DNA of 64,000 nt from Argopecten irradians. Its lineage: Eukaryota > Mollusca > Bivalvia > Pectinida > Pectinidae. Positions 362-61,240 of this stretch are shown one piece after another. Position numbers and translations under genes: made by a program. Position 1 is the stretch's first letter, and each line of letters starts with the position of its first letter. Below the pieces are notes generated by a model. It was not told the origin of the DNA. It saw nothing but the letters and a program-made list of their open reading frames with translations, and did not search any database. The stretch lies in NCBI RefSeq assembly GCF_041381155.1, contig NC_091137.1, forward strand, positions 16,301,765 through 16,365,764, read 5' to 3'.

Positions 362-3300
362 TTACACAGTAAATGGACACGTATCTAGTATCTGTATGTC
401 TGCGCAGCCGTAGAACTGCTCCTGTTGACCACATCCAATACAACAGTCATCCTTCCCATCACACCCCCAGCTGTTACCTGTAAGAGGATTGGTGTATCAT
501 ACACAAAGATAACAAATACTGTTAGTCTGATGTAATGGTATGTTAAAATTATTCCATTTCAACTAAATTTATCATTGACATAATTGGTCACAATAAGTTT
601 AAATCCACATGTTAGTGTAGCCAAGGACGTATATGAGATCACTTATAAATCCTTGGTGTAGCGATCAGATTTGGAAAACATCATGGTTTCTTGCTACCTT
701 AGGCCATGGCACTAAAATAATGTAACCTTGGGTTAACTACCAGACAATGTTGGAAAATACAGAAATTATTGCTATTATACATTATGCGAATACTATGTTT
801 TCTATATCACTGGATATAATGTTCCTGGTAAATTGTTGTGCTGGATTCACTTTCATTGTTGAAGATAATAAAACATGATAATATGATAACAATTCTGGGT
901 AAATAGTTGACCTTGGTAGATACTTTGCAATCGGTTTTCAATGTGATATGATATCATGAGTTTTGCAATGTAAAATTCAATTTACATATCTAAAACATCT
1001 AAAATATCCGTTCAAAAGTATGATACATGTACATATTTTGACTGTATTACTCAACTTGTTTTCAATTAAGCAGATTTAAGAGTATATTCCCGTTTCAATA
1101 TACTACTATTAAACTAACGGAAGTATATTTTTTTACCTGGGATACAATAAAAATATTTGATCATCAAGTAAACCTGGGTGCTCATCAGTATATGACCGAC
1201 CGTCGCGGCTGGTCATAGCACTTGCATAATCATACATAATGATTATGCTTAGTTTACACTTAAAATATAATGTCCAATCCATACTGCCAGTTCCTCATAT
1301 TTATTACTTAGGGTTCCACAATTTTACATCAGCATCTCACATTCACCAATTACACTCCATGTATAAATATATATTCCAATGGGCTTACTATAACCTTTTG
1401 TCACTTCTAGAACTTCTCTAACTACTAGTCTAGATTTTGGGCTCTAAGACCCTACTATACAAGTCCCTGCCACACCTGGTAGAAGACACCCTAATCAGAC
1501 TCCCTAAGGATCTCTAGGTTTTGCCTGACAGGCCTAGTCTGTGTTTCTTATACATCTTTATCCTAATATATTAATGAAACCATATAGTACACAACCGATA
1601 TAAAGGTTGCAAATTAAAGATAACTTTATCTTCTTTCTAATGATATAGAAAATATATAGAACTATTATTAATTACAAATGTTACATTAGAAATACTGACT
1701 TTCACATACTAAACATTACTGTAAAAGCTATACAGCTTCCAAACTATACTGCCTATTGAATTGTAACTCAGTATATCAATAATACACATCTTGCTGTATC
1801 CAATGCTTAGTAAATTACATTATTCACTATTATAATTCTTTACTTATTACTTGTTTTAAATATATAAAACAAACACATTTATTTTAGCTCTTCCTGAGAC
1901 CTGCTATCATGTGGTCACCACGGGGGTCAACCCTTCCCTTCAGCCAGGGGTACTGACTCAGCATGGTCCCTCTATCCTGACACTACACAGTGGACAGTCT
2001 AACTCTCTTATCTATATGTATAGATATAATTACTGTGTCTCATTTAACCAAATGCTATCTGTCATAAGTACAACATCATTGGAAAGCCATAAATGGCGTA
2101 TACGGATTTATAGTAATATTTACATAAATGGTAAAAAGTTAAACTTACCGGCGTTGTATTTCCATTGAAGAACGCACTGTTGGCAGGTCACACCTTTTGG
2201 CAGGTCGACATGGAAACTAAATTCCCGATTTTCATCTGAGGTGATGTATCCTCGCGTATCCGCAGTTCCAGTAAAGTTCAGCACGTGTTCGTCCAGACAT
2301 TCCTGGCTGATGGCCTGGCTGATATTGTTGTTCTCACACAGCCGGAACTCGAAGTAACCCTTGTGGTTTGAGGTAAGTTCAGCAACCACTTCTATAGAAG
2401 AGACGGAAGTGACGTAGCAGGCTGCAATTGTTCCAGTAGCGTATTCTCCACCTGCCTCGTGGGCCCTCTCTCCCTCGTAGGGGTCGCCACATAACCCACA
2501 TTCCCCGCCTTGGTTGTTCCACTGATTCTAAACATGTGATAACGAAACGAAAGTTAGCATCAGAAGTGATAACGAAATAAGTACACAAATCTAAATTCGA
2601 CTCAATCAAAAATTTCCCAATGACGCATGGAAATTTCCATGCGTTTCGAAAGAGTGAACAGTATCTATGTCGTCGACGAAACAAAACATTTAAATTAAGT
2701 ATAGTTGTTAAAAAAGTGGGAATAAAACAAATATAGATTATCAGGTTTGTTTTACAATACCATTTTTTCATTCGAATTTAAAATGGTGGTTCAATCCTGA
2801 TAACTGAAATTGTGCTGCGGTTCCTGAACAAATGAGTGAGTAGCAACACACTAGTTATCACATAACGTAGCGACATACTATAGGGTTCATAATGGTTATA
2901 AAATACTCAAAAATAAAGTTAGGTTTTGGCTCAACAATGTTCCCTCATTCTACGATACATGCACTATGGAGTCGTGTCCAAAGTAATTTATAGTTAAGAA
3001 TGGATAGTGCCGAGCTTTACTAATAGAATAAATAGGCTTCTTTGTGTAAAGAGTTTCTTTGAAATCGAAGTTAGTAAACGTTTACTAGTCAAAAGTAAAC
3101 TAATAAAATTGACCTGAACATTATATTAATAGGGTATTTGCTGATATTGATAAATATGTAAAATATGTTAATGATATAAGCATAAGGAAACGAAATTCAC
3201 CACCTCTGTCCATTACGAATCAGTTTGCAGTATAAGCAATACAGATTCTATCAGTTTATAGCTTTGCAGAGGTTTCGTAATTGGGAATAGAGGAAGATCA

Positions 3301-4306
3301 TTTTAATTGTTATCAATTTAGTTTAAAAGGGTAAATCAAAGTAAGTTACAGGATAGATAGATATATTATACATCATTATCTGTAATTATTTTTATCCTGC
3401 AACTGCCCCACATACTGACCGATAACTACTGCCGGATAAACTTGTGCTTTATCCGTCTATACGAAATGCTTTATCCGTCAATACGATCACGCGAATTTGT
3501 TCCATATCTGACGGAACTTTTTCTAACTTGACCCAAAACTTGAACCTTCCAGTGAATGAAACGTCATTCTGTCCCGCCGCTAAAACGTGACGTCACATTC
3601 AGCGGAATGACGTTATTTCTACGATATCGAAAATCTTGTATTGGGGTGTCGTCTTTTTCTTAATTCATGGCAAAGATATGTATTGCTTTTTAAGTATTTT
3701 CATTTTGTGTTAGTGATATATCACACTGAATATAATTACGGTTACTGTTTGTGAATGCGCTTATTTATTTCCCACGGCAGTAAAAAAAAAGAGTACACTC
3801 TCATTCGGTTAAGTGAATGAATCTTTACCTCCGCATCAAAGAAGCGTCTCGCTTCGAGCGAAACCAAGTAAAAACTGTCAATTTGCTTTCGTTTTGAAAG
3901 CCATAATGGTTGCAGGGTAAACAAAATACACCGTTAGTGTCTTACAATACAAGGTTTATTTTGGGCCTCGTCATCTCGGCTTTCCTTAGTCTCGCACCAA
4001 AATAAACCTTGTATCGTAAGATACTAACCATTTATTCTCTATTTAAATCAGACAGGATATTTGAGGTTCTCGTTTCTGTGGACATACTTTTATAGTTGCT
4101 TACATTTTTATGAATGATCGTTGGTATAGACTTACATGAAATCCGCCACAGTTGAGTTCGTTGTCGTTGTAATTGACGGGTGTGTCAAATCCATACCTCC
4201 ACATAGAGCCCCTACTGGGTGGTTTGACAAGGCGCCCGTGACTTGTCACCTCCACCACAACACAAAGGCCAATACAGAGCAGCACCACAATCTTCAAGGT
4301 TGACAT
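362..4306 (-). CDS. AA15 lytic polysaccharide monooxygenase, gene A (catalytic domain only)
   Basis: Three coding exons: 4306-4136, 2527-2149 and 477-362. The first intron is phase 0 (donor GTAAGT), the second phase 1. Predicted length is 221 aa. Residues 1-22 form a signal peptide, and cleavage would leave His as residue 1 (HGRLVKPPSRGSMWR), as copper His-brace enzymes need. The core exon has CGLCGDP and EAGGEYATG. It also has TSNHKGYFEFRLC, whose His is the second brace ligand by analogy with AA10/AA15 enzymes. TCQQCVLQWKY follows. The last exon gives GNSWGCDGKDDCCIGC and QEQFYGCADIQI, then ends nine residues later. Family role: copper-dependent oxidative cleavage of chitin or cellulose outside the cell. 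Unlike its three neighbours it has no Thr-rich tail or Cys module. The start is the only Met that gives a signal peptide. No clear TATA box or 5' intron was found. Confidence 0.9.
3933..4028. repeat. Small hairpin element in intron 1 of gene A
   Basis: Inverted arms of about 32 bp (3933-3964 and 3997-4028, the left starting gttagtgtcttacaatacaa) flank a 32-bp loop. The shape is that of a short foldback or MITE-like element. No target-site duplication was identified. Confidence 0.7.
4136..4306 (-). other. Exon 1 of gene A: signal peptide and N-terminal copper histidine
   Basis: 57 codons, ending NELNCGGFH at a phase-0 donor. The same 57-58 codon layout is found in exon 1 of B (13580-13407), C (24385-24215) and D (28940-29110), so the family's first intron is conserved in position and phase. 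Confidence 0.88.
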
Positions 4307-10066: not shown

Positions 10067-13000
10067 CTAATTAGACAATGATTCGTCTAACTGTGACTGG
10101 ACATCGGGTAGGACTTCCGCATCCGTTTCATTAACGGGAATGGCGAAAGGATATGAGGTAGTTGGGACAGTGGTGGTGACAGTGGTGGGAATTGGAGTGA
10201 TAGTAGTAGTGGGGATTGGAGTGATAGTAGTAGTGGGGATTGGAGTGGTAGTGGTGGTGCGGATTGGAGTGGTGGTAGTGGTGGGGTCAGGTGTCGTAGG
10301 GGATGGTTTCTTAGTACATTTACACATATAGGCTGGACAAAATATCGGGGAGTAATTACAGTTGATGTTACACCAATAGCTACTGACGCTCGGATATAGG
10401 GAAACACATGAACGTAAAAAGGAGATCAAAGAGTTGGAGGTGGTCTTTGGGACAGTAGGCAACGACGCGGTAGTTGTGGTAGTTTCAGCAGTGGTTAGAG
10501 TGGGTTTTTCCTTTGTGGTTGTCGGGGTAGTACATCTACATAGGAAGGTTGGGCAATGTGGCGGAGAGTGGTTACAGTTTATTGCACACCAGCGATCGTC
10601 GTCAGTACTTCGCGAAATTGAGTAACATCTGCCACTACTTCTTTGCTTACGACCAAATGTCTTATCGCCCACAAGTGGTGACAGAGCGGATCCTTGTTTC
10701 CCCGTCTCTATGGGTATCGTAGGAGAACCTCTGGCTTTGATGGCTATATCTGAACACGCATAGAATTCTTCTTGGTCAACACAAGTTTTACACTTCCCAT
10801 TCTTTCCTGCAAAATCAAACAAACACACACGTAAGTAAAGTAAATTAGGCCAAAAATCAATAATTTGTCTGCTTATGGTTACCCGACCGACCCTAAATTT
10901 CTACCCCCGACCCTAATTTTTGTTCCACTTTTCTACGGAAAAAAATAAATGTCGGAATTTCGATCTCAGAGTCCGGTTCCGGCCATTATTTTAGAGTGAA
11001 AGACACACAAAAATTCTTCCCAACCTACTGACCATATTTTTTGGCCAATGTAACCCTAAACAGATATATTTTTGGGGCTTATTATAAGTTAACTTCATCC
11101 GATTGTACGGGGTTGGTAAAGCAGTAAGATTTGTTAGTTCATAACGTGACTTTTTCTCGTGTTTTCATTGTCTTAGCCCCCGGGCACTATTTAGCCGTAG
11201 TCCCGGAACTATGGTTTCCCGCGCCTTTTTGTCACGAGCGGCATATTGACAAAAACGGCGTCCTTGTCGCTATCTGTGCTGTTCACTGGCAAACAAGATG
11301 TGTGCGGACGACGTTTTGCAAAACATAAATGTCAAAGTTTGGAAACTTGAATGCTGACGAATTTACAAAAGAACAAAATAGCAAATTGAACTGAGCAAGC
11401 ATCGAAATAGGCAGTGAGTATTTTCACAGATTTCTGCCAGGAAAAATATATATTATACGCCTCCGACCATGGCATTTCTAAACGTTAGACGTGTCTGCAC
11501 TCGTTTTGAAAAAAAATGCTATTGATGATCTTAGATAATTGTTTGTCCTATCTTTTTTTCCAATTCGTTATGTACTAAAAACACAATATTGCCTTCTTTT
11601 GAGGGCACTTCGGTCTCAAAAGAAGGCAATAATATATAAATAGTATATTTCCAGATCAGACAAATCTTCAAACATTCACGACCACATAACAATAGCCCAA
11701 GCAGCACTCCCACAAACATGGCTATACAGTATGTTTTTAACATGCAAGTTGGCGTATTCTTTCGTCCATATGGAATATCATTTTCTTTCATACCTATGGG
11801 TGTAATACTGGCTGGTCTAGGGCAATACACTCATGTCGCCTGAGGCTTTATTGCATGGCTACCCATGCAATAAAGCCTCGTGACGTCACGGTGTCAACAA
11901 AATTTCTATTTCCTCGGTAAAATTTTAACATTTTTTTTCAAAAAATTGACTGGTTTTACTATAAAAGATGCAAACAACTGGTTTTGAGTCACAAAATGTT
12001 GCAAAACCCTCTGCAAGCCTCGGGTTTTACTACATTTTGTGACCCTCGGGTAGAATATCCCTATCCTTCATATCCACATATGAAAGAGTCTTATAATATA
12101 CAAACATGCATGTTTTGGCTATTAGAAATAAAAGTTCTTGTCAATTAACGCGAAGGTCCTTTTGCCATATTAACTATTATACCTTTGAGATATTGGTGAG
12201 TATGACTCATAAATTAACTTAAATCTATAATTGTTTTAATTAAGTAAGATAACAATGACATGTATAACATGATATCATATTTTTTAATTGTGATAGAACA
12301 TATATTGATATTTATCGTTGGATATATATTTGACATGAGTGAGGATGTGATTTACCTGTGTGGTACCTCCACTGTAGGACACACTGTGAACAGGTGACGT
12401 TCTCTGGCAGCTTGACAGGTACAGCGATGTTATGTTTGAATTTCTTCACAGGGTACTGTGTCTCTCCCGTCACCGGATGAACCAAGACATGCTTCAAACA
12501 GCTCCTGGTGATTGGTTTGGACACGTCATTATTTTCACACAGTCGAAACTCGAAAAACCCACCATCATTCGTTGTGATATCGATTTGAATATCAATGACC
12601 TCGCCCATTTTGTAGTATTTTGAGATTATTCCAGTTGCATACTTCCCGCCAGCCTCGTTCTGTTTCGGCTCTTGGTCTGAAGGGTCCCCACAAACACCAC
12701 AATTTCCTCTGAAGAAGTCTAGAGGTTGCTGGTAACAGAATACATACATTTTACTTAAAAACTACTTCACTTAAATATAAATTTACTATTCAAACGAAAT
12801 ATGAGTAACTTGACATAATCAAATGGTAACAATGGGTTTATTATTATTATTTTACGATATCAATTGCTTCACACACTGTATAATAGCATATTTCAGTGTA
12901 TACTTCAGTGGATCTGTGTTATAAGATACTACAAAAGTACGCCAAAATAAAGAATCATTTTGACAGAAATCTCAGGATATCCTTGTGGTGAGTAGATGGT

Positions 13001-13605
13001 TTGGGGACAGTGGTATTTCTGTGTTTTGTTTCAGTTTAATTAATTTTCTTTCATTCATATTGAATCTCGCAAAAAATGCTATCAGTTAAAGACAGAGATG
13101 CCAACCAGCTTTACTTACAGAACTGTGAATAATCGTAGGACATTAAACTCAAAACAAATAAGTTACCAAAGCCACCCCACTACACCACTGTATTAAGGAC
13201 ATAGAACTATCAACTAAGTACAATCTCGAAAAAGTGCATTTTACGGTTCAACTACAGTTAGACAACATTCAGTACGTTCCAAATATTGTACGGATTTTAG
13301 AGTAGTATAGTAATACTTCTGGTTACGACATTAAAATGACTAATTCATGCAAATAAACGGCCTCCCATGCTTTCATAAATTTGTGTCCTATTAGAATAGT
13401 AATCACCTCTTTGTATCCACAATTGAGGCCGTTATCATCGAAGTTGACTGGAGTATTGAATCCAACTCTCCACATGCTGCTCCTACCTGGAGGGTCTAAC
13501 ATTCTGCCGTGCCCATGCACGACCGACGCCAGGGCGAAAACGAAAACAACGTACAACGGCGACATTCGGAGGGACACCATATTCACCGGTTTTACAGCTT
13601 ACAAT
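10067..13605 (-). CDS. AA15 LPMO-like protein, gene B, second copper histidine replaced by Asp; two C-terminal Cys modules
   Basis: Coding exons are 13580-13407, 12728-12356 and 10806-10067. The first exon itself starts at a splice acceptor, 13605. Predicted length is about 428 aa. The signal peptide ends before HGRMLDPPGRSSMWR, so the N-terminal His is kept. The core motif that carries the second copper ligand reads TTNDGGFFEFRLC: Asp (codon GAT, 12566-12564) stands where genes A, C and D have His. The rest of the fold looks intact: CGVCGDP, NEAGGKYATG, TCSQCVLQWRY and QEEFYACSDIAI. The large last exon adds a basic linker, a six-Cys module (10627-10532), a Thr-rich linker, a second module (10408-10316), a Thr/Pro/Ile repeat and an acidic end. 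The exon 1 donor is GTGATT, weaker than in the paralogues but at the same position. Family knowledge predicts no normal copper site. The open frame suggests a retained non-catalytic role, for example polysaccharide binding; that is inference. Confidence 0.88.
11588..11630. repeat. Perfect 16-bp hairpin in intron 2 of gene B
   Basis: attgccttcttttgag (11588-11603) pairs perfectly with 11615-11630 around an 11-bp loop. Function unknown. Confidence 0.7.
11782..12100 (+). mobile_element. Palindromic MITE-like element, copy 1 (intron 2 of gene B)
   Basis: About 320 bp, homologous in inverted orientation to 45139-45622. It starts near tttctttcatac and ends near gaaagagtc. Inside are a 16-bp hairpin around aggctttattgcatgg, a TGACGTCA palindrome (11881-11888) and one arm of a large palindrome (ctcgggtagaatatccctat). 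The other arm, present in copy 2, is missing here. No coding capacity. Confidence 0.75.
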
Positions 13606-15244: not shown

Positions 15245-16987
15245 GCTTTAATATTGTTACATAATTATAATAATATTAGACACACTTTTTGTATGAATCA
15301 ATGCTCGTGTTATCTGTATTGGATTTCCAATCTTCTTTATGTAATGTTATGAGATTGATAGTATTACACTGAAAAGTGTCAATGTTTTTTTTTATTAACG
15401 TCCTGTATGACATAACAGAAACATTTCATATGCTTAACCTAATGCCACAGGAGGGCTAAAGTTGGTTGCGAGTTGTTCCTATTTCTTTTTAACTTCAACG
15501 GAACTAGGAACTCGCAACCAACTTTTTTCAGCCTCCAAATGTGTTATGCATAATATCATTACTGACTGAATTCGACATTTCGCGATACATTGTTTTCCTT
15601 GAAAACATAAAAAGTATTTCATTAATTAGAATAAAACGGTCGATTATTTCATAGGATGGAAAACTTCCTTATTCACCCAAAAGAAGAAGAAAGTAAGATT
15701 TACTTTTCAAATATAAACGTTTCCCGATCCTGATCAAAAGTATGCGGAGGCGACCCCGAATTATGTAACCATATAACCTTTTATGTTAATAGGTTGTAGG
15801 ACAACAGATTGGAAAATCGACTGAAATTGACGATGTTTTCTCGTATGACTCCGTGTAGATCAACGTGTTAGGAATGACTGATACAGGGGGTGAAAAATAA
15901 ATATTTCCCGAATTAGTCGTGTATAGATGAAAAATATTATTTGGAATAAATGTGGTTCACATATACATTTTCTTCGAATTTTTGTTAACGTTCATTTTTG
16001 TATTTTTGCCATCATGTCTATGTCCCTAAATTGCTTATGTATCAAACCCGCGGAAACAATCGACTACATGGTATATATTCCAGCTAGTGTTCATGTTTAT
16101 AACATATGTTTGTTTGTTTGTTTGTTTTTGTTTTTTCGCTTTAAAAAGATTCTAAGTAAAACTAACAAAGAAGCAGAAGTGCCATTTGTTTTATTCGGTT
16201 TATTACAACGCCTTTTTATTATGTGAAATGCATCTTATGTTAATGCTTTCCCCAACCATTTGACATTTCATTGTCCTAAATATTGTTTTCATAGAGCGAG
16301 CTACTTTTAAGTCTCTTTCATGAACATCAAACTCATCCTGTGTACTTTCTCTCTCTCCTCTCCTGTCTACCCGGCAAGTGGTTTTATCATTTGTCACTGC
16401 CTTTTCATAAATGTTTCTATAATTTCGATTCGTAGAAAAATATATTTTAAAAAGTCCTAAAATGTTTCTTGTCACAGTCAGAACTAAATTTATATTAAAT
16501 TGTTTCTGAGTGCTTTAAAGATAAGAGTTATAGAAGGGTGATAACATTCGATAATGGCACTGTATTTTGCGCTGTCATCACTACAATTACAAATCATTTA
16601 CAGGATTAACAACGGTATGTTGCATATATATTGATTTCAAATAGTTGGCTAATATCCTATTATAATGGCATGGGTGTTATAAGAGTTATAAGATAAAAAT
16701 AGGCAGAAAAAAATATAAGAAATAAACAAAAGAGAAATAGCTCAGTTTCCATACGTTTGAATGGATGCATTCTATAATCGCTGACTTCTTAATGATACGG
16801 AATACATGAATTTCTCTCAATGTACCATCATGGAGGAAGATAGTAATTTAATGTAGTAATTTAATGTCACTGAATTGCCTTATACAACAAAAATAGGCAT
16901 ACTACAAACAGGATTGTTGTTTTTGAATGATGACGACTACAATACATGGTATAAAAAGTTTGATTTGGGATCGGTGAATGAAGAAAA
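15245..16987. repeat. Tandem segmental duplication, unit 1
   Basis: Starts at gctttaatattgttacat and matches 16988-about 19178 almost base for base over long stretches. It holds one copy of the 48-bp sequence that is amplified in unit 2, and the hairpin arms around ttggttgcgagtt at 15459-15525. A 90-codon open stretch on the minus strand (16475-16203) recurs in unit 2, but only because the DNA is duplicated. No gene recognised. Confidence 0.85.
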
Positions 16988-19178
16988 GCTTTAATATTGT
17001 TACATAAATTATAATATTATAGACACACCTTTTGTATGAATCAATGCTCGTGTTATCTGTATTGGATTTTCAATCTTCTTTATGTAATGTTATGCGATTG
17101 ATAGTATGGCATTGAAGAAGTGTTAATGGTTTTTTATTAACGTCCTGTATGACATAACATAAACATTTCATAAGCTTAACCTAATGCCACAGTAGGCCTA
17201 AAGTGGGTGGCGAGTTCCTATTTCTATTTAACTGCCAAAGGAGGGCTAAAGTGGGTGGCGAGTTCCTATTTCTATTTAACTGCCACAGGAGGGCAAAAGT
17301 GGGTGGCGAGTTCCTATTTCTATTTAACTGCAACAGGAGGGCTAAAGTGGGTGGCGAGTTCCTATTTCTATTTAACTGCCACAGGAGGCCAAAGTTGGTG
17401 GCGAGTTCCTATTTCTATTTAACTGCCACAAGAGGGCTAAAGTAGATGGCGAGTTCCTATTTCTATTTAACTGCGAAAGGAGGGATAAAGTTGGTGGCGA
17501 GTTCCTATTTCTATTTAACTGCCACAGGAGGGCTAAAGTGGGTGGCGAGTTTCTATTTCTATTCAACTGCCACAGGAGGGCTAAAGTGGATGGCGAGTTC
17601 CTATTTCTATTTAACTGCCACAGGAGGACTAAAGTGGGTGGCGAGTTCCTATTTCTATTTAACTGCCACAGGAGGGCTAAAGTTGGTTGCGAGTTCCTAT
17701 TTCTTTTTAACTTCAACGGAACTAGGAACTCGCAACCAACTTTTTTCAGCCTCCAAATGTGTTATGCATAATATCATTACTGACTGAATTCGACATTTCG
17801 CGATACATTGTTTTCCTTGAAAACATAAAAAGTATTTCATTAATTAGAATAAAACGGTCGATTATTTCATAGGATGGAAAACTTCCTTATTCACCCAAAA
17901 GAAGAAGAAAGTAAGATTTACTTTTCAAATATAAACGTTTCCCGATCCTGATCAAAAGTATGCGGAGGCGACCCCGAATTATGTAACCATATAACCTTTT
18001 ATGTTAATAGGTTGTAGGACAACAGATTGGAAAATCGACTGAAATTGACGATGTTTTCTCGTATGACTCCGTGTGGATTAAAGTGTTAGGAATGACTGAT
18101 ACAGGAGGTGAAAGATTTCCCGAATATAGTCGTGTATAGTTGAAAAATATTATTTGGAATAAATGTGGTATGCATTTTCTTCGAATTTCTGTTAACGGTC
18201 ATTTTTGTATTTTTGCCATCATATCTATGTCCCTAAATTGCTTATGTATCAAACCCGCGGAAACAATCGACTACATGATATATTCCAGCTAGTGTTCATG
18301 TTTATAACATATGTTTGTTTGTTTGTTTGTTGTTGGTTTTTTTCGCTTTAAAAAAGATTCTAAGTAAAAATAACAAAGGAGCAAAGGTACCATTTGTTAT
18401 TCGGTTTATTACATAGCCTTTTTATTATGTGAAATGCATCTTATGTTAATGCTTTCCCCAACCATTTGACATTTCATTGTCCTAAATATTGTTTTCATAG
18501 AGCGAGCTACTTTTAAGTCTCTTTCATGAACATCAAACTCATCCTGTGTACTTTCTCTCTCTCCTCTCCTGTCTACCCGGCAAGTGGTTTTATCATTTGT
18601 CACTGCCTTTTCATAAATGTTTCTATAATTTCGATTCGTAGAAAAATATATTTTAAAAAGTCCTAAAATGTTTCTTGTCACAGTCAGAACTAAATTTATA
18701 TTAAATTGTTTCTGAGTGCTTTAAAGATAAGAGTTATAGAAGGGTGATAACATTCGATAATGGCACTGTATTTTGCGCTGTCATCACTACAATTACAAAT
18801 CATTTACAGGATTAACAACGGTATGTTGCATATATATTGATTTCAAATAGTTGGCTAATATCCTATTATAATGGCATGGGTGTTATAAGAGTTATAAGAT
18901 AAAAATAGGCAGAAAAAAATATAAGAAATAAACAAAAGAGAAATAGCTCAGTTTCCATACGTTTGAATGGATGAATTCTATAATCGCTGATTTCTTAGTC
19001 GAATGATACGGAATACATGAATTTCTCTCAATGTACCTTCATGGAGTAAGATAGTAATTTAATGTCACTGAATTGCCTTATAAAACAAAAATAGGCATAC
19101 TACAAACAGGATTGTTGTTTTTGAATGAAGACGGCTACAATACATGGGATATCTATATCTTAATGTTGAAAAGTTTGA
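16988..19178. repeat. Tandem segmental duplication, unit 2
   Basis: Second copy of 15245-16987, about 450 bp longer. The gain comes mainly from ten extra copies of the 48-bp repeat at 17186-17712. Small indels separate the units, for example an inserted segment near 18993. The right edge of homology is near aaaagtttgat. Confidence 0.85.
17186..17712. repeat. 48-bp minisatellite, 11 copies
   Basis: Units begin near gccacaggagggctaaagtg and end near ctatttctatttaact. Starts lie at 17186, 17234, 17282, 17330, 17378, 17425, 17473, 17521, 17569, 17617 and 17665; one unit is 47 bp. The final unit runs into an inverted copy of its own core (aggaactcgcaaccaact, 17725-17742), forming a hairpin. Because 48 is divisible by 3, several frames stay open. 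Confidence 0.9.
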
Positions 19179-20158: not shown

Positions 20159-23100
20159 TTAAAATGAAGAGCATTTACACAAGAAAAATGGACAAAAGGG
20201 AGGACTATGATTACAGTTGATGTCACACCAAATGTCAGCCACAAATACAGAAAGCGATACACATCTACCGCCAGATGGTTTACTTGTAGTAGGTTTTCTT
20301 GTGGTCGTGGATTTCTTAGTAATTGCAGGATTGGTGATGGTCATGGTGTCACTGTCGGTAGTGACGTCACTGTCAGTGGTTGAAGATGTGGTGGTGACGT
20401 CACTATCGGGATTGGTTGTTGTGTTAGTGACGTCACCTTCGGGAGTGGTAGTTGTAGTAGTGGCATCATTCTCGGTAGTTTTGGCCGATGATTCAGTGGT
20501 TGCCGATGGACTGTTAATTATTGAAATATCAGAGCAGGCATAAAACTCTTCCTGGCTACCACAAAGGTCACAATCATTTTCAGTGTAATGGAAAGTGTTC
20601 CCTACAATAAAAACGAATGCATTTAGGAAAGAACATATTTAGATATTTCAGAGACCAAATGTTTTAAATTAAGTCTTACATGCTCCATCTAAATCATCAA
20701 CCCTGATTATATATCAGATAAATGATGCTTCGAATTAAAACATTTTCGATTCACATTTCCATGCGTTAACATATGGGAGATCACCCCAGAAAAAAAATCA
20801 TCATGACTTTTACGAAGCCAATCAAATATTCGGCAAAGATGCATTTATTCCTGATATGTTATTACTAAATATTCGGCAAAGATGCATTTATTCCTGATAT
20901 GTTATTACTAAATAATCTATCATCATATATTTGATATTCCACGGGTTCCGATCACTTACGATCTCTACGCCCCTGGACTATCTCTTAGTAAAAGTGGAGG
21001 CAACGAAACAGAACAGGTAATTTAGTCCTTTATGTACATCAAAAGAGCCGTATAACGGAATATATATGGATTTTAAGTTGGGCGTCACCCTCTATATAGT
21101 CTTCAAAGACAGAGGAAGTTTTTGCAAGCCTGTGATTGGTTCAGATATTTTCTTCTGGTCTGCCTTCACTTTTAATATGAGATAGTCCAGAGGTGTAGGT
21201 GCTCGGAACTCCTGGAGTATCGAGGATGCTATCATCAGTACTCAAATTGATATTTCATACTTATTTTCCAGCTTATCCTTACCTGTACGATACCGCCACT
21301 GAAGTACACACTGGGAACACGTGACGTGATCAGGTAGCTTCGCAGACAGTTCAAAATGTTGTGTCGTGTAAGAAGATATGTTATACCTAGTGCTGCCCGT
21401 CACTGGGTTCACCAGCACGTGTTTCAGGCACTGTTTAGTGATTCTTTTAGTGACGTCATTGTTCTCACACAGACGAAACTCAAAGAATCCCAGATGATTA
21501 GAGGTGAGTAAGACTTTTATCGTGATAATGTCACCCATACTGTACGACTTGGAGATAATTCCGGAGGCGTATTTTCCGCCAGCCTCGTTGTCCCGTGGAA
21601 CCTGATCCAGTGGATCTCCACATAAGCCGCACTGAACATCCTTAAAGTCAGCTGGTTGCTGGAATAATAAACCCATATCTAAATGTTGTTTGCCTATATA
21701 TTCAGACATGGTACTTTGTATTCTCATCTATTTCCAACGCTAGTATTATATTATTGTAATAATGTATTGCCTTTAATACTAATAAAGATTGCGAACTATC
21801 AATAACCAGCTTCAGGTGTTTATTTACATTAAATAGGCCATGGGCTAAACATGTTAACATTGCATAAGTTGGGATGGGATGAACTTCCAGTTATGACGTC
21901 ATCAAGATGGCCGCCATCTCGAATTTCACTAAAATTTGAAAAATAGTCATAACATTAACATTTTTCAACCGAAGAAGACAAATGAGGTATAAAAATGATC
22001 ACAATAGAACAACGAATACATATCAGGACAAAAAATCCAATATATGTAGTGATTTCTACGCAGGAAATGAAAAAATCAGATTTTAAGCTCAAAAATGGTG
22101 ATTTTCAGCAAATTTTTCATATTCGGCTTGACGCAGCAAAAATGTTTCCAAACAGCAAATTATTATTTCTAATAAGTTTTTTGACCACTTATCAATCAGT
22201 TTAAACAACAACAACAACAACAAAAACTAATGCTAACATTGTATAGGTTCCGGTTATGACATCATCAAGATGGCCACCATCTCGATTTCACTAAAAAATG
22301 AAGAATAGTCATAACACTGATATTTTTCACCTAAAGTAGACAAATGAGGTATCAAAATGACCACAATAGAACGACAAATACATATCAGGACCAAATAATC
22401 CAATATATGTAGTGATTTGTACGGAAGAAATGAAAAAATAAGCTTTTAAGCTCAAAAATGGTGATTTTTAAGCAAATTTTTCATACTTGGCTTGACGCAG
22501 CAAAAATGTTTCCCAACAACAAATTATTACAGCACAACACCTACTGATAGCGTAATAAATGTAACCTAAGCTAAGCCTGTGTTTCCGTTAATATCATTAA
22601 CAGTTCCCAAAGCGTTTGTGTCTTTGAAAATGAGCAGATTCATTGTTTATTCCCTATGCATAGCATAAGCAATATGTCTGATGGTTACTACAATGTCACT
22701 AATTTGTCTTTCACTGGTAACCATTATCATTGTGCGTGCTTTTTCGCCTCACAGCACTATCCACTGAAGAGATTCGGCATATCTGGTAGCTGGTACATGC
22801 AGTCCGAATCAGAGTACTCGAGATACAGTATCCAATTCATCGAAAGCCAGAGCGTCGTCTTCGATGTCGATGAGCTGATGTGACACTGCATTACCAATGT
22901 TGTTCTAGCCTGTCATCTTTTATGACCCATCCATGGCCAGAGTTCATATCAGGAACAACAGGTTCAGGGATGTGGGATCTCTTTCAGATTCTAACATATC
23001 GTACGTACATGCTGTTTTAGACTTCTCCGGCATAATGGAAATCACACCAGATGCACATTCTTCCAATGGTGGAATTGGTTCTCCTTAGCACATAGCTCCA

Positions 23101-24400
23101 TAATTAGTATGAAGTACTATTCATCAATCTTGTGGACCCTCGTGCAACCATAAATGGCACAGGTGATATCATCGAGGTCATTAATGAGGGCATAAATGGT
23201 CTGACTTTTCCCAATCCCTTGAAGGTGCTGGTTGTGTCACATCTGGTGTATGCGCAAAAAGAGACCATTGAAGACTCTCCAGTAGGAGTTCTCTAAAGTG
23301 CTTTCCAGACATGACAAAGAGTGAAACTTCACTGCTGACCTCATTCATGACCTCAAAGAATCCACCTGTGCCACCTATGGTCACTGAGGTTCACAAGAAT
23401 GAGGAATTGTGCTTCATACGAATTAAGGAGAACCAAGGCAACCCTCCGCAGAATGTTGATCTGGTATCTTTTCCATCATGCCGGGGAAGTCTGGAACATC
23501 ATATACGATATGTGGATCTAGGTGAAGTCCCACTTTGATATTCATCCAACTTTAAATTCAAATTTGTTAAGATATAAATCGCCAATAGCCAATGTTATAT
23601 TCAGGAAATTCCAATACACCAGGAAACTGTAGTGTTAGCGGTTTGGAAAAAATAACATATATATATATATATCATATGCCACATCCGGTGATGTTTTGTA
23701 AACCAAATGATGGTATAATAATTCTCTTTTGCATTTCTATATATTTTTGTTGTTGTTGTTTAACCGATTGATAAGAGGTCAAATAACTGATTGTGAATAA
23801 TAATTTGTTGTTGGTAAACAATTTTGCTGCGTCAAGCCAAATATGAAAAAATGCTGAATTTTTTTTAGTGAAATTCGAGATGGCGGCCATCTTGATGACG
23901 TCATAACCGGAAGTTCATCCCAACTTATGCAATGTTAACATTTTCATTTGTGATCAGTGGGCCATAAGGGTTCAGAAAAATATTGGTTTGGAGGTTTGGG
24001 GGGAGGGGTCGCATGTGGGACCCTCCTAGCCCATGGCCTAAAACCAATCATAAAAATATTCGCATCTGCAATTGCGTTATCATCCATGGTATATCGACTC
24101 TCTGCCATGTAAATTAATAGGAAAATGAAAATTTATAACATATGGAACAGGACAGTGGCAGGCCAGGAACGAGAGTTATGATGGATATATTCAAGAATTG
24201 AAAATTCTACTCACATGTTGATTTCCACAATTTAAACCATTGTCGTCATAATTAGGTACAGTATCAAAGCCCACTCTCCACATACTGCTCCGGCCGGGAG
24301 GGTCCAACATATAGCCGTGTCCATCAACCACAAAGTACTGGAGCCATGAACACATTCCAATTAACAAAAGTCCTACTCGTGGCATGTTTAGGTAACCAGA
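20159..24400 (-). CDS. AA15 lytic polysaccharide monooxygenase, gene C, with Thr-rich linker and one Cys module
   Basis: Coding exons are 24385-24215, 21658-21283 and 20601-20159. The ATG exon starts at acceptor position 24400 (CATTTTCAG before it). Predicted length is 329 aa. The signal peptide (residues 1-22) precedes HGYMLDPPGRSSMWR. The core exon has CGLCGDP, NEAGGKYASG, TSNHLGFFEFRLC with the second copper His, and TCSQCVLQWRY. The last exon starts GNTFHYTENDCDLC and continues with QEEFYACSDISI. A Thr/Ser/Asp-rich linker of about 80 residues with repeated SDVTT follows. It ends in the module CVSLSVFVADIWC...CNHSPPFCP...CKC (20263-20171). Both His-brace residues are present, so a working secreted enzyme is expected. 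The module may bind polysaccharide, which is inference. Intron 1 is occupied by a 2.2-kb composite repeat element. Confidence 0.9.
20824..20909. repeat. 43-bp direct repeat, two copies, intron 2 of gene C
   Basis: aaatattcggcaaagatgca and the following sequence is repeated exactly with period 43. A recent small tandem duplication. Confidence 0.85.
21834..24040. mobile_element. 2.2-kb composite repeat element in intron 1 of gene C
   Basis: Bounded by a perfect 14-bp terminal inverted repeat, taggccatgggcta (21834-21847) and its complement (24027-24040). Inside the left end are two direct copies of a ~380-bp unit (from about 21853 and 22232, the second shortened). A third, internally deleted copy is inverted at the right end (about 23690-23943). 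All carry the ATGGC(C/G)(G/A)CCAT core beside ATGACGTCAT or a variant, and an A-rich CAA/TTG tract. The centre (about 22560-23690) is a different sequence. No transposase recognised, so a non-autonomous DNA element is the best guess. Confidence 0.65.
23040..23530. pseudogene. Degenerate coding fragments inside the composite element
   Basis: Two related fragments lie back to back. One, on the minus strand, covers about 23290-23110. The other, on the plus strand, covers about 23311-23530. Both carry the same DNA motif around ACCTGTGCCA(T/C)(T/C)TATGGT. The plus fragment reads VSFPSCRGSLEHHIR, which recalls the C-terminal PPCRxSLxxHIxR signature of a large unnamed protein family common in marine invertebrate genomes. 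The frames are short and shifted. Family recall is unverified and the function unknown. Confidence 0.3.
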
Positions 24401-28939: not shown

Positions 28940-31900
28940 ATGAAGGCGTTTGAGATGACATTTTTCCTACATATTGCCTTGTCCATGTTTGTGGCGGTCA
29001 GTGGCCATGGTCGCCTGTTGAATCCACTCGGACGAAGTAGTGCCTGGAGAGCGGGGTACAATACACCGAAAAATTACAACGACAATGAGCTGTACTGTGG
29101 TGGATTCGCGGTAAGTAAAATATCCTCTAACTCAATTATACCATTAATATGACTGAAGGCAAGGCCTTAAAGGGCGTCGCCAGATGTTTCAATAAGTATA
29201 AATAATGCAATGTTAAACGAGTTCAATTTATTGAAATAACGGAGCCGAATGTTTGGTTTATTTTTATCCATATATTCACACTCTATCTTTGTCCCAAAAC
29301 TCCCATTTGAGAGGAAACCCACATAAGAGAAGAAAGAAACTTTTATTTCCATAACAGATATGCCGTTTTTGGTCAGGTGATTATATTGGACGGTAGTTTA
29401 TCACTTGAACGCTTGCAAATAATGAGCAACAGCACTGAGCTTCTGCCGGATGAAGATTACGTTCGTCGGATCTTAAAAGCGTTTGAATCGCTTGATTATA
29501 TAATAAGCAGACTTCACGTATCGTATTCACGCTGATGAGATTTTTTACCGTGGATGAAAAAATGGTGGCCTCAAACTGAAGCTGTCAGTGTGTAGGATTG
29601 AATGTTGAAGATTGTGTTTTTTCTTTATTCTCATTAATGCGTTACCTTAAAAGTGCTTCGCACTTATAAATACTACAATGACAATCGGTTAGTAAGTTAT
29701 AAATCTAATACATATATAAATATACCTGTAAAGTTCCCCGCATTGTTAGAGACACCTGCAAAAATATTTCCAGATTGAAAAAGATGGCACACACGGGTCC
29801 TAGACTTTTTGGAAATTTCTGTTTTTCCATGTGTGAGAACATTTACAAAATATCCACTGACATATACTATCTTTTTATTGCTGAAATACTAAAGGCTTTA
29901 TATATATATAACTAAAATATGGTTAAGCATGTTTTTTGTTATAAATAATACATTGATATATTTTAATGTAACGAAACGAGTAAGTGCTGACACGTATCCT
30001 CATAGGTGAAACTTAACTAGAGTGAAAAGGAATTCAATGAGATGTACCTATAAAATATAATGTTCTGTTTGCTGTTAATAAGTTTTGTTAAAAACATTGT
30101 ACCATACCGGATTTGCATGGAAATGGCTAAAATAGGCATGTTGTAATCAATTTACTTGTTTGCAATAAAATTAGCTGAAAATGAAAAGTGAATTCTTACG
30201 CTTATTGGAATAATAGTTGTCTTGAAATCAATTAGACTTAATTTTGATCATTTGTTTTTTGAAGAAAACTTTTTTTTTAATTTTATAATATAAATATTAT
30301 AATAACTATATTTATTATTTTTAATTTTACATTATTTTATATATGTCAGATTTAGTGTAATCATTCGAAGCATACTTCCATTAAATAATTATTAATTTGT
30401 ACGAAAATAATACATATACATAGGAAATTGATATATAGAACATACATTTTTATTGTCAAATTTGGTAAGACATGAAAAGAAAAATATATGAAAAAACTAA
30501 TAACAATGTGGAATTAAAATAAGAAACAATACATTTTGGTGAGACGGATCATGTCCAAGTATGGATTACATTATTATTGGAATGTGCTTCGAATAATTAT
30601 TGATACAATACCGTATGCATAGCATGTGTGTAGAGGTACTTAGAATATAATTTGGTCCTTTTGGTTTGTTGGTGTGCTTAATGTCCAATTTTTTGTATGT
30701 GTGTTTTTTGGGGTTTTTCGTTTTATTTTATTTATTTATTTTATTCAATGATTAGCTGGTTTGTGATGAGAGTTTAGTCAGATTTTTGTATTACATATTC
30801 CTAACATGAAAAATTATATTCAAGTTAAACATTATAATTCAATTTACTGAAGATAATCTCTTCAAATTCATTAAAGGACTCTTCAGTCTGTTATCTCAGC
30901 CAATCAGAAGCGACGTAATTTTATTCATTTATGAGCTGATAAAGTAAATTTTAAACCAATGACAATATCTTTACAAACAAAATTGAATTATACGCATTTA
31001 TTGTCATGTGTCTTCCCTGGTGCTTTATATTGGCCTAGTGGTACATAAGCTGTTATGTGATAGAGTCGATTCTAGCCGCAAAACATGAAATTTGAAAACA
31101 TTTTTGCTTGAACGAATAATCTTTCTACGTTTTCATGTAACCAAGAAGTAGGCTTTAGCTTTTTTAAACTATGTGTATTCAAGATGGATTTCATAATTGC
31201 TCGTGGACAGGTTCGATTTACCTGTTTCCAAATCTACACGTACATTTCCAGAAGGGTATCTGTATAGTGCATTAATAATGTACTGAAGCATAGTATAAAA
31301 ATATGTTATTGCTTTTGTGCAGCACCAGCAAAGTCTCGATGGCAAATGTGGACTCTGCGGAGACCCTTATGACCAGGCACATCCCAGGGAAAACGAGGCT
31401 GGAGGAAAATATGCAACAGGACTGATCGTAAGCCATTATAACATGGGGTCTGCCATCAATATCACCGTCCAACTCACTGCTAATCACCTTGGATACTTTG
31501 AATTCCGTCTCTGTGTAAATAATAACGTTTCCAAAGCAATCACAGAAGAATGTCTGTCGCAACATATGCTCACTAACTCTCAGACGAACGATACTAAACA
31601 TCACGTCGATGGAAGCAGAGGTGCTCATAATTTTACAGTCACTGTAACTCTTCCGATGGATGTGACGTGTTCCCAGTGCGTCATGCAGTGGAAATATCGC
31701 ACAGGTAAGTTATCAAAACAAATGACATCTTAAGCTGACCGTCTCCAAATAACCAGTAAATTATATTTGTACACTAAGCATACAAGATAATATAACAACT
31801 GCCATAGGTTTCATTCATAATAAACTGTCGAAATGGTTCAGATAGGACTTCTCAAAGATTATCAAAACTATACAGGCCCCTTCTAATTATGGCCTTGTCC

Positions 31901-33210
31901 ATGTTAACTCGGTTACTCTCTATCTAGATGCGGAGAGTTTACCCGTTTAAAGTTGTGCAGCGGTTTGCGTTACCATCTTGTACACATGTACCACGGATGT
32001 GTACCACGTAATTAACGATCATTTATAGATGAAGATACAATATGTTTCTAAAATATCAATGATGTCCATGATTTTACCACAGACTGAGGTTGATATTACT
32101 CTTTGTGCGATACAATCATTAACTAATAGATAATGCTAAGAAATAACCGCTCTATTTTGGTCTTTTTTATCTAAACCTTAACAGCATAAAACTAATAGCA
32201 TGAATATTTGAAAGTTGTATATGAATTGAACCGGCCTTCTTTAACAATATTTGAGCTATCATCAAGTGCAACATATACTCAGTGTTTTTCTATGCCCGTA
32301 AGTATGTATTGTATTATGACAATGTTTAGGAGACTGCGTATATACTATTTTCATAATATTCACTTATGCAGGAAACAGTTGGGGTGTAGATGAGACCGGA
32401 AGTGGTTTGGGACATGGACCTCAGGAGGAATTCTACGCATGTTCAGACATAGCAATTACAAATGGAGCCATGTCTAATACAACGTCCTCTGCATCACAGA
32501 TTCCTACGACGTCCTTTACGACAGCGTCTGAGAGATCTACAACATTGTTAGCCATTTTGAAATCATCCACAACGTCGAAAACCACCCTATCATCTACGAC
32601 AACAACTAAATCACCATCCACAACTCCGAGGCCCCCTACAACAACAACCCCGTCGTCTACGACAACAACTAAATCACCATCCACAACTCCGACGCCCCCT
32701 ACAACAACAACCACACCGTCTACGACAACTAAATCACCATCCACAACTCCGACGCCCCCTACAACAACAACCACACCGTCTACGACAACTAAATCACCAT
32801 CCACAACTCCGACGCCCTCTACGACAACAACCCCATCGTCTACGACAACAACTAAATCACCATCCACAACTCCGAGGCCCCATACAACAACAACCCCGTC
32901 GTCTACGACAACAACTAAATCACCATCCACAACTCCGACGCCTCCTACAACATCAACCCCACCGTCTACGACAACTAAATCACCATCCACAACTCCGACG
33001 CCCTTTACGACAACAATCCCATTGTCTACGACAACAACTAAATCCACAACTATGATGCTCTCTACGACAACAACTGCAACACCTACTTCTACAGCGTCCT
33101 CTAGTCAAACGTGTGTGTCCGTGTCTGCGGTTGCCACGGATTCCTGGTGTAGCAGTTCATGTAACCATGAACCTCCATATTGCCCATCAAACTTCTGCCA
33201 ATGCACGTGA
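28940..33210 (+). CDS. AA15 lytic polysaccharide monooxygenase, gene D, with long Thr/Pro-rich linker and terminal Cys module
   Basis: Exons are 28940-29110, 31323-31704 and 32372-33210, with the same intron positions and phases (0 and 1) as genes A-C. Predicted length is 463 aa. The signal peptide (1-22) precedes HGRLLNPLGRSSAWR. The core exon has CGLCGDP, NEAGGKYATG, TANHLGYFEFRLC with the second copper His, and TCSQCVMQWKY. The last exon opens GNSWGVDETGSGLGHGPQEEF and continues YACSDIAI. It lacks the Cys pair that A, B and C carry just before the QE motif. About 220 residues of Thr/Ser/Pro linker follow, with a repeated KSPSTTPTP unit, then CVSVSAVATDSWC...CNHEPPYCP...CQC and one last Thr. 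Its opposite strand to A-C suggests an inversion within the family cluster. Likely a secreted, heavily O-glycosylated polysaccharide oxidase. Confidence 0.9.
32593..33070 (+). repeat. Coding minisatellite in gene D (Thr/Pro linker)
   Basis: Units of 60 or 63 bp share aaatcaccatccacaactcc. About seven full copies plus a worn one lie in frame and give the repeated KSPSTTP(T/R)P(P/S/H)TTTT. The two unit lengths differ by one ACA codon. The composition makes the opposite strand open for about 200 codons, but that is a by-product of the repeat. Confidence 0.85.
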
Positions 33211-57023: not shown

Positions 57024-60000
57024 AGCTTAGTTCTAACCACTAACTGTTCCAGATGCAGTCTCTTTAACCCCAGTTCTAACCACTAACTGTTCCAGATGCA
57101 GTCTCTTTAACCCAAGTTCTAACCACTACCTGTTCCAGATGCAGTCTCTTTAACCCCAGTTCTAACCACTAACTGTTCCAGATGCAGTCTCTTTAACCCC
57201 AGTTCTAACCACTAACTGTTCCAGATGCAGTCTCTTTAACCCCAGTTCTAACCACTAACTGTTCCAGATGCAGTCTCTTTAACCCCAGTTCTAACCACTA
57301 ACTGTTCCAGATGCAGTCTCTTTAACCCCAGTTCTAACCACTAACTGTTCCAGATGCAGTCTCTTTAACCCCAGTTCTAACCACTAACTGTTCCAGATGC
57401 AGTCTCTTTAACCCCAGTTCTAACCACTAACTGTTCCAGATGCAGTCTCTTTAACCCCAGTTTCTAACCACTAACTGTTCCAGATGCAGTCTCCTTAACC
57501 CCAGTTCTAACCACTAACTGTTCCAGATGGAGTCTCCTTAACCCCAGTTCTAATCACAAACTGTTCCAGATGCAGTCTCTTTAACCCCAGTTCTAACCAC
57601 TAACTGTTCCAGATGCAGTCTCTTTAACCCCAGTTCTAACCACTAACTGTTCCAGATGGAGTCTCTTTAACCCCAGTTCTAACCACTAACTGTTCCAGAT
57701 GCAGTCTCTTTAACCCCAGTTCTAACCACTAACTGTTCCAGATGCAGTCTCTTTAACCCCAGTTCTAACTCTTCAACCCGAGTTCTAACCACTAACTGTT
57801 CCAGATGCAGTCTCTTTAACCCCAGTTCTAACCACTAACTGTTCCAGATGCAGTCTCTTTAACCCAAGTTCTAACCACTACCTGTTCCAGATGCAGTCTC
57901 TTTAACCCCAGTTCTAACCACTAACTGTTCCAGATGCAGTCTCTTTAACCCCAGTTCTAACCACTAACTGTTCCAGATGCAGTCTCTTTAACCCCAGTTC
58001 TAACCACTAACTGTTCCAGATGGAGACTCTTTAACCCCAGTTCTAACCACTAACTGTTCCAGATGCAGTCTCTTTAACCCCAGTTCTAACCACTAACTGT
58101 TCCAGATGGAGACTCTTTAACCCCAGTTCTAACCACTAACTGTTCCAGATGGAGTCTCTTAACCCCAGTTCTAACCACTAACTGTTCCAGATGGAGACTC
58201 TTTAACCCCAGTTCTAACCACTAACTGTTCCAGATGAGTCTCTTTAACCCAGTTCTAACCACTAACTGTTCCAGATGCAGTCTCTTTAACCCCAGTTCTA
58301 ACCACTAACTGTTCCAGATGCAGTCTCTTTAACCCCAGTTCTAACCACTAACTGTTCCAGATGCAGTCTCTTTAACCCCAGTTCTAACCACTAACTGTTC
58401 CAGATGGTCTTAACCAGTTACCAATGTTCCAGATGAGTCTCTTTAACCCCAGTTCTAACCACTAACTGTTCCAGATGCAGTCTCTTTAACCCCAGTTCTA
58501 ACCACTAACTGTTCCAGATGCAGTCTCTTTAACCCCAGTTCTAACCACTAACTGTTCCAGATGAGTCTCTTTAACCCCAGTTCTAACCACTAACTGTTCC
58601 AGATGGAGACTCTTTAACCCCAGTTCTAACCACTAACTGTTCCAGATGCAGTCTCTTTAACCCGAGTTCTAGCCACTAACTGTTCCAGATGCAGTCTCTT
58701 TAACCCCAGTTCTAACCACTAACTGTTCCAGATGGAGTCTCTTTAACCCCAGTTCTAACCACTAACTGTTCCAGATGCAGTCTCTTTAACCCCAGTTCTA
58801 ACCACTAACTGTTCCAGATGCAGTCTCTTTAACCCCAGTTCTAACCACTAACTGTTCCAGATGCAGTCTCTTTAACCCCAGTTCTAACCACTAACTGTTC
58901 CAGATGGAGTCTCTTTAACCCCAGTTCTAACCACTAACTGTTCCAGATGCAGTCTCTTTAACCCCAGTTCTAACCACTAACTGTTCCAGATGCAGTCTCT
59001 TTAACCCCAGTTCTAACCACTAACTGTTCCAGATGCAGTCTCTTTAACCCCAGTTCTAACCACTAACTGTTCCAGATGCAGTCTCTTTAACCCCAGTTCT
59101 AACCACTAACTGTTCCAGATGGAGACTCTTTAACCCCAGTTCTAACCACTAACTGTTCCAGATGCAGTCTCTTTAACCCCAGTTCTAACCACTAACTGTT
59201 CCAGATGCAGTCTCTTTAACCCCAGTTCTAACCACTAACTGTTCCAGATGAGTCTCTTTAACCCCAGTTCTAACCACTAACTGTTCCAGATGCAGTCTCT
59301 TTAACCCCAGTTCTAACCACTAACTGTTCCAGATGCAGTCTCTTTAACCCCAGTTCTAACCACTAACTGTTCCAGATGCAGTCTCTTTAACCCCAGTTCT
59401 AACCACTAACTGTTCCAGATGGAGACTCTTTAACCCCAGTTCTAACCACTAACTGTTCCAGATGGAGACTCTTTAACCCCAGTTCTAACCACTAACTGTT
59501 CCAGATGCAGTCTCTTTAACCCCAGTTCTAACCACTAACTGTTCCAGATGCAGTCTCTTTAACCCCAGTTCTAACCACTAACTGTTCCAGATGGAGACTC
59601 TTTAACCCCAGTTCTAACCACTAACTGTTCCAGATGCAGTCTCTTTAACCCCAGTTCTAACCACTAACTGTTCCAGATGCAGTCTCTTTAACCCCAGTTC
59701 TAACCACTAACTGTTCCAGATGGAGACTCTTTAACCCCAGTTCTAACCACTAACTGTTCCAGATGCAGTCTCTTTAACCCCAGTTCTAACCACTAACTGT
59801 TCCAGATGCAGTCTCTTTAACCCCAGTTCTAACCACTAACTGTTCCAGATGCAGTCTCTTTAACCCCAGTTCTAACCACTAACTGTTCCAGATGGAGATC
59901 TCTTTAACCCCAGTTCTAACCACTAACTGTTCCAGATGCAGTCTCTTTAACCCCAGTTCTAACCACTAACTGTTCCAGATGCAGTCTCTTTAACCCCAGT

Positions 60001-61240
60001 TCTAACCACTAACTGTCCAGATGAGTCTCTTTAACCCCAGTTCTAACCACTAACTGTTCCAGATGAGACTCTTTAACCCCAGTTCTAACCACTAACTGTT
60101 CCAGATGAGTCTCTTTAACCCCAGTTCTAACCACTAACTGTTCCAGATGCAGTCTCTTTAACCCCAGTTCTAACCACTAACTGTTCCAGATGGGTCTCTT
60201 TAACCCCAGTTCTAACCACTAACTGTTCCAGATGCAGTCTCTTTAACCCCAGTTCTAACCACTAACTGTTCCAGATGCAGTCTCTTTAACCCCAGTTCTA
60301 ACCACTAACTGTTCCAGATGAGTCTCTTTAACCCCAGTTCTAACCCTAACTGTTCCAGATGCAGTCTCTTTAACCCCAGTTCTAACCACTAACTGTTCCA
60401 GATGCAGTCTCTTTAACCCCAGTTCTAACCACTAACTGTTCCAGATGCAGTCTCTTTAACCCCAGTTCTAACCACTAACTGTTCCAGATGCAGTCTCTTT
60501 AACCCCAGTTCTAACCACTAACTGTTCCAGATGCAGTCTCTTTAACCCCAGTTCTAACCACTAACTGTTCCAGATGGAGACTCTTTAACCCCAGTTCTAA
60601 CCACTAACTGTTCCAGATGCAGTCTCTTTAACCCCAGTTCTAACCACTAACTGTTCCAGATGCAGTCTCTTTAACCCCAGTTCTAACCACTAACTGTTCC
60701 AGATGGAGATTCTTTAACCCCAGTTCTAACCTCTAACTGTTCCAGATGCAGTCTCTTTAACCCCAGTTCTAACCACTTACTGTTCCAGATGCAGTCTCTT
60801 TAACCCCAGTTCTAACCACTAACTGTTCCAGATGCAGTCTCTTTAACCCCAGTTCTAACCACTAACTGTTCCAGATGCAGTCTCTTTAACCCCAGTTCTA
60901 ACCACTAACTGTTCCAGATGGAGTCTCTTTAACCCCAGTTCTAACCTCTAACTGTTCCAGATGGAGACTCTTTAACCCCAGTTCTAACCACTAACTGTTC
61001 CAGATGCAGTCTCTTTAACCCCAGTTCTAACCACTAACTGTTCCAGATGCAGTCTCTTTAACCCCAGTTCTAACCACTAACTGTTCCAGATGGAGACTCT
61101 TTAACCCCAGTTCTAACCTCTAACTGTTCCAGATGGAGACTCTTTAACCCCAGTTCTAACCATTAGCTGTTCCAGATGAGGTCTCTTTAACCCGAGTTCT
61201 AACCACTAACTGTTCCAGATGCAGTCTCTTTAATAACCCC
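57024..61240. repeat. 43-bp minisatellite, about 98 copies, in a TOCA intron
   Basis: Unit ttctaaccactaactgttcc followed by agatgcagtctctttaacccc and ag. Span divided by period gives about 98 copies. Sub-types differ mainly after 'agatg': cagtctcttt (commonest), gagactcttt, gagtctcttt and a shorter agtctcttt. They are interspersed rather than in blocks. A few units are damaged, for example near 57765 and 58405. No reading frame of interest. Confidence 0.95.

Follow-up and report, generated by a model that had tools for sequence, protein, structure and literature searches.

RESULTS

Genes at the Locus

The window, a stretch of 64,000 nucleotides of Argopecten irradians DNA, contains the AA15 genes A, B, C, and D, whose features are collected in Table 1. 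Gene B is assembled from three exons. Both introns have GT-AG boundaries, and exon 3 is open until the stop codon. Its His1 follows a leader that was judged by eye to be hydrophobic, and ten Cys were counted by eye in the LPMO domain. The axial residue is Phe in all four genes (in gene B within the motif QEEF), compared with Tyr184 in TdAA15A, and thus gene B retains an aromatic residue at this position. The original prediction that gene B is whole apart from one brace residue is borne out by the open frame, His1, the ten Cys, the splice sites, and the hydrophobic appearance of the leader. A pseudogene broken by a stop or frameshift was considered and rejected, since no stop, frameshift, or splice loss is found in the three exons.

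Table 1. Features of the AA15 genes in the window
Feature	Position	Strand	Description
Gene B exon 1	13407..13580	-	presumed signal peptide and N-terminus up to CGYKE; donor GTGATT
Gene B His1 codon	13509..13511	-	mature N-terminus after presumed signal peptide, VVHG|HGRM; cleavage placed by eye
Gene B exon 2	12356..12728	-	LPMO core with Asp91; acceptor TTACCAG, donor GTAAAT
Gene B exon 3	10067..10806	-	shortened loop GKNGKCKTC, axial Phe, two Cys-rich modules, Thr/Pro linkers, stop
Gene B six-Cys module 1	10532..10627	-	CYSISRSTDDDRWCAINCNHSPPHCPTFLCRC
Gene B six-Cys module 2	10316..10408	-	CVSLYPSVSSYWCNINCNYSPIFCPAYMCKC
Gene C	20159..24385	-	His-intact sister of gene B; exons 24215-24385, about 21283-21658, 20159 to about 20601
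Gene C His91 codon	21494-21496	-	CAT
Gene C six-Cys module	20171-20263	-	one module
Gene A	362..4306	-	AA15 with His1 and His91; exons 4136-4306, about 2149-2527, 362 to about 477
Gene D	28940..33210	+	AA15 with His1 and His91; exons 28940 or 28955 to 29110, about 31323-31704, about 32372 to 33210
Gene D six-Cys module	33112-33204	+	one module

Several repeats accompany these genes. The Thr/Pro-rich linker of gene D (32580-33074) is built from tandem repeats of ~60 bases, and that of gene B from a shorter 24-base unit (10181-10286). Between genes B and C there are eleven copies of a 48-base unit (17185-17712), flanked by two blocks that are similar by eye (about 15300-16980 and 17640-19140) and have the look of a local duplication. 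A satellite of about 4.2 kb, with 43-base units and a higher period of 129 bases, occupies 57029-61233.

Replacement of the Second Brace Histidine

The gene B codon at 12564-12566, on the minus strand, is GAT (Asp) and lies in the context AAT GAT GGT GGG TTT (TTNDGGFFEFRLC). The same site carries His in the other three genes: AAT CAT CTG GGA TTC in gene C, AAT CAC CTT GGA TAC in gene D, and AAC CAC AAG GGT TAC in gene A. A phmmer comparison with solved structures placed the gene B Asp under the His of APHIGFFEFRLC in 5MSZ (TdAA15A; E 1.8e-38), which is residue 91 of that chain; the copper ligands of TdAA15A are reported to be His1 and His91 (PMC5823890). The original proposal that an Asp replaces the second brace His of gene B is therefore correct, and the alignment identifies the site as that of His91. 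The chain 5msz_A is the best PDB relative of gene B (runner-up E 0.14). PF03067 (LPMO_10) matches gene B with 67.1 bits against a cutoff of 23 and is the sole Pfam family at E up to 1; DUF1775, the family of YcnI, does not match. By its sequence, gene B is an AA15 by descent that departs from the catalytic definition of AA15 at His91.

We consider it most improbable that GAT reflects an error in the consensus sequence or an allele private to the animal sequenced. A single base separates GAT from CAT, but the neighboring codon also differs from that in gene C, and other copies lack the same His. Codon 92 differs between genes B and C at all three bases, and codons 91 and 92 together (GAT GGT and CAT CTG, respectively) at 4 bases; the difference at this site is thus not confined to a single base.

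Brace Residues in Copies across the Genome

The searched assembly comprises 846 Mb in 1508 contigs. At least 26 matches to the PF03067 profile were obtained, and at least 33 rows with gene B exon 2 as the query; both counts are lower bounds because the search scores the best candidates only. Removing the second pieces of L029 and L038 from the 33 rows leaves 31 exon-2 copies (L009-L038 and C13:7295851, designated L069), and two further C2 fragments fall outside this census. Residue 91 is His in 24 of the 31 copies read. The seven exceptions are gene B (Asp), L020 (Ile), L025 (Met), L031 (Leu), L032 (Leu), L034 (Ala), and L036 (Thr); the letters for L034 and L036 depend on the alignment, and neither copy has a His in that stretch. 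Exon 1 could be read in 29 of the 31 copies, none being found for L037 and that of L014 being disrupted there. Exons 1 and 2 were paired by place and strand, and the pairing is less sure for L031, whose exons are 43 kb apart. His1 is missing from 8 of these 29 copies: L018 (Tyr), L020, L025, and L031 (Arg), L032 (Gly), L034 (Gln), L036 (Glu), and L069 (Phe).

Among the 29 copies with both residues read, 20 keep both, six have lost both, two have lost only residue 1, and one, gene B, has lost only residue 91. The joint loss of His1 and His91 gives p 4e-4 in a Fisher test, a value that overstates the association since the copies are related. Gene B is not an isolated case: a brace His is missing from 9 of the 31 copies read (residue 1 being unreadable in two of the remaining 22). 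Gene B is the only one read with His1 at the expected place and no His91, the His of L032 being one residue off.

All six double-loss copies have an exon 2 without stops. Judged from these readings, brace-less AA15 genes persist in the genome as two double-loss groups, one of four and one of two divergent copies. The four-member group has Arg at position 1 in three members and a hydrophobic residue at 91. AA9 proteins with an N-terminal Arg are known. The three Arg-bearing pairs (L020/L064, L025/L058, and L031/L060, with Ile, Met, and Leu for His91) fall in the same tree group and may constitute a line of brace-less LPMO-fold proteins. In the fourth member, L032 (with L063), a dibasic RR stands directly ahead of HGARLVDP and well past the leader. 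Its His sits after RR, one residue upstream of the aligned position 1, and this offset His might be exposed through later processing.

The brace-less copy L036 (L036:2424-3347) continues in frame into a long Pro/Ser/Gly-rich tail and a transmembrane-like stretch, GLALILLAFFMYISSAY. In the AA15 cluster on C9, L018 with L047 (C9:20383585-20384182) has Tyr for His1, keeps His91, and is very near L017 and L021; this is probably a recent loss of the residue-1 brace His. Decaying members of the family are also present, namely L013, L014, L035, and L038, with a frameshift, a disrupted exon 1, or stops.

A DNA search of the genome with gene B exon 2 returned one copy of gene B, plus gene C at 66%, and revealed no second haplotype or copy of gene B. 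Two scans of viral_contigs found no relative. The scan of genome_contigs gave one match, L077, in a bacterial MAG (44% over 41 residues), which on reading appears to be fortuitous.

Origins of Brace Loss

A protein tree was built from 28 copies and TdAA15A, leaving out the damaged L013, L035, and L038. Some inputs are partial (L029 and L030 contribute part of exon 2, and L037 has no exon 1). Genes B and C are sisters (100/99), with gene D next (89/89). The double-loss copies form the groups L034/L036 (100/99) and L020/L025/L031/L032 (97/95), for which a single origin is compatible with the tree; the position of L069, on a long branch, is unsure. Because gene B is sister to gene C and apart from the double-loss groups, its loss is separate from theirs and followed the split of B from C. 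On the tree as drawn, a brace His was lost at five places; a common origin of the double losses would reduce this number to four. It seems that AA15 here gives rise more than once to proteins that may bind without cutting.

Conservation and Rate of Gene B

Conserved columns were taken from 15 intact references (14 copies and TdAA15A) with the brace columns removed. Gene B keeps all 26 invariant columns and 36 of the 37 near-invariant columns (those conserved at 90% or more), the lone change being Tyr24 to Phe. When intact copies are left out one at a time, they show 0-3 invariant and 0-5 near-invariant changes, gene C being at 5/41. The double-loss copies have changed at 1-4 of 26 invariant and 5-9 of 37 near-invariant columns, the latter range becoming 4-9 after correction for a trimmed end in both L020 and L036. 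At the near-invariant level the gap between gene B and the double-loss copies is less clean, as intact copies reach 5. Core conservation does not date the brace loss, which may lie anywhere on the gene B branch.

With gene D as the outgroup, 9 unambiguous changes are assigned to gene B and 11 to gene C (p 0.82), a comparison of low power in which 31 columns differ in all three genes. The protein-tree branch is 0.36 for gene B and 0.22 for gene C, which speaks against equal rates; the column count does not show this difference. In a branch codon model (7 genes, 165 codons) the synonymous sites are saturated, with branch lengths of 1.0 to 4.6 in the one-ratio fit and 20 for gene C in the three-ratio fit. 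In this saturated model, a free omega on the gene B branch (0.04) is not distinguished from omega fixed at 1 (p 0.71) or from the background (p 0.93). Because of the saturation, dN/dS is evidence for neither side.

These data bear on the idea that gene B was inactivated so lately that the rest of it has not decayed, and that it is a pseudogene in the making. His to Asp takes one base change, omega = 1 is not rejected on its branch under the saturated model, and there are damaged AA15 copies elsewhere in the genome. Against this, codon 92 differs fully from that of gene C and the loop before the axial Phe is shorter, which implies several steps; gene B is free of stops, frameshifts, and splice losses, and the conservation of its core is complete. 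We judge a recent loss of this kind to be decidedly unlikely.

Binding Face and Six-Cys Modules

Gene B exon 3 reads GKNGKCKTC where most copies have GNSWG or GNSYG and a longer loop. An aromatic residue at the place of TdAA15A Tyr166 was found by eye in 17 of the 21 copies with a readable exon 3; it is missing from gene B, L019, L031, and L036, and the brace of L019 is intact. Gene B thus has Phe where TdAA15A has Tyr24, and its shortened loop offers no aromatic to match Tyr166. Its surface aromatics are weakened, which counts against its being a polysaccharide binder.

A search of the genome for the six-Cys module returned 5 rows, of which 4 are strong (two in gene B, one in gene C, and one in gene D) and the fifth has E 5. 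Both gene B modules keep all of their Cys, and L032 has a look-alike by eye. The module matched no family in a Pfam search of exon 3 from genes B and D, and a PDB search gave nothing convincing (the best hit, at E 0.052, is a designed protein). Assignment to a known chitin-binding family was dropped on these grounds, and for the same reasons polysaccharide binding by the module is a guess. Some AA15s of oomycetes are described as ending in a short domain rich in Cys (X473, six Cys), for which chitin binding has been suggested and which was found solely in Saprolegniales (PMC8393829). These tails offer a parallel to the gene B modules by analogy only.

DISCUSSION

In LPMO chemistry, copper is held by His1 and a second His. 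Gene B has no bis-histidine site, and therefore the known LPMO copper site cannot be built. The explanation that we tentatively prefer, and to which we give a little less than an even chance, is that gene B encodes a secreted, non-oxidizing pseudo-LPMO, which carries two six-Cys modules and probably binds polysaccharide. After the split from gene C, gene B would have lost the second brace histidine through the change of His91 to Asp, and without the bis-histidine brace its protein would carry out no LPMO oxidation. The LPMO domain and the paired Cys-rich modules on Thr/Pro linkers may hold the protein on chitin or another matrix polysaccharide. The other brace-broken AA15 copies could work in a similarly non-oxidative way, with His1 also lost. 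The kept core, the leader, and the paired modules fit a non-oxidative polysaccharide binder. The retention of His1 is odd for a pure binder, given that the six double-loss copies have no His at the aligned position. The original prediction called gene B a retained pseudo-enzyme or an altered metal site; the broken brace and the kept core agree with that description. Selection may account for its retention, and the repurposing for binding raised in the same prediction is an inference.

It might be argued that the gene B protein still works as an LPMO through His1 and Asp91, its kinetics or its substrate having changed. The core and the axial Phe are kept, an N-terminal His has been reported to suffice for holding a transition metal, and copper-loaded Ang proteins had weak oxidase activity (PMC12537917). 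In the same report, neither the oxidase nor the peroxidase activity of these proteins was substantial when compared with that of LPMOs, and the AA15 active site has been described as absolutely conserved among 214 aligned members (PMC5823890). We regard continued LPMO activity as very unlikely.

The remaining alternative is an altered metal site in which His1 (amino group and imidazole) and the Asp91 carboxylate form a mono-histidine brace that binds Cu(II) for its capture, storage, or transfer and not for LPMO chemistry. Gene B is the only copy read with His1 in place and a possible ligand at residue 91, where the others lacking His91 have Ile, Met, Leu, Leu, Ala, and Thr. Precedents are available: BsYcnI binds Cu(II) through its N-terminal His and Glu50 (PMC8424229), RbAng-1a binds it through His1 and an Asn oxygen, and MmAng-2a, with a modeled His1/Asp33 site, shows copper binding by EPR (PMC12537917). 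Replacement of the second His is a known brace change, shown in YcnI (review, PMC10952591). In addition, the modeled site of Bim1 includes an Asp from a Gly-rich loop as a ligand (PMC7529816), and gene B has NDGG at this site. On the other hand, HGG occurs in the intact copy L026, so GG is not diagnostic, and, Asp having a shorter side chain than His, the loop would have to move for it to reach the copper. We consider a mono-histidine site possible but doubtful. No natural AA15 lacking the second His was found in the titles and abstract openings of the open-access literature searched, and within these limited searches gene B would be the first LPMO domain with a carboxylate-substituted brace if His1 and Asp91 do form a copper site, a claim that we rate as unlikely. 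Were it true, copper oxidases of the animal AA15 family would repeatedly become copper carriers or proteins that only bind matrix.

The more general point is the absence of the full brace from 9 of 31 copies in one genome, in contrast to the published absolute conservation. Counts of AA15 in animals, and forecasts of activity made from family membership alone, may overstate oxidative capacity. Gene B and its sister gene C also provide a matched natural pair, with Asp and His at residue 91, in which the contribution of the second brace histidine could be studied.

With TdAA15A (5MSZ), gene B shares the PF03067 match, His1, the ten Cys, the core motifs, and an aromatic axial residue. It differs in having Asp for His91, Phe for both Tyr184 and Tyr24, a shortened Tyr166 loop, and two added Cys-rich modules. 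The double-loss paralogues (L020/L025/L031/L032 and L034/L036) belong to the same family and have likewise lost His91, but their residue 1 is Arg, Arg, Arg, Gly, Gln, and Glu, and their near-invariant changes number 5-9/37 (4-9/37 after the correction for trimmed ends) compared with 1/37 in gene B. X325/Bim1 proteins are LPMO-like, with an N-terminal His and an Asp near the site, and in CopC and Bim1 the Asp adjoins a brace that keeps the second His (PMC7529816). In X325/Bim1 the Asp is an extra ligand, whereas gene B has no second His and so does not combine His1, a second His, and Asp in the X325/Bim1 manner. YcnI (DUF1775) and Ang-1/Ang-2 have an N-terminal His and, instead of the second His, a residue that donates oxygen; gene B has in its sequence His1 and, in Asp91, a possible donor of this kind. 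They are bacterial proteins of other families linked to copper or metal uptake, with measured metal binding, whereas gene B is known from sequence. The resemblance of gene B to the mono-histidine brace proteins would thus lie only in its possible ligand set.
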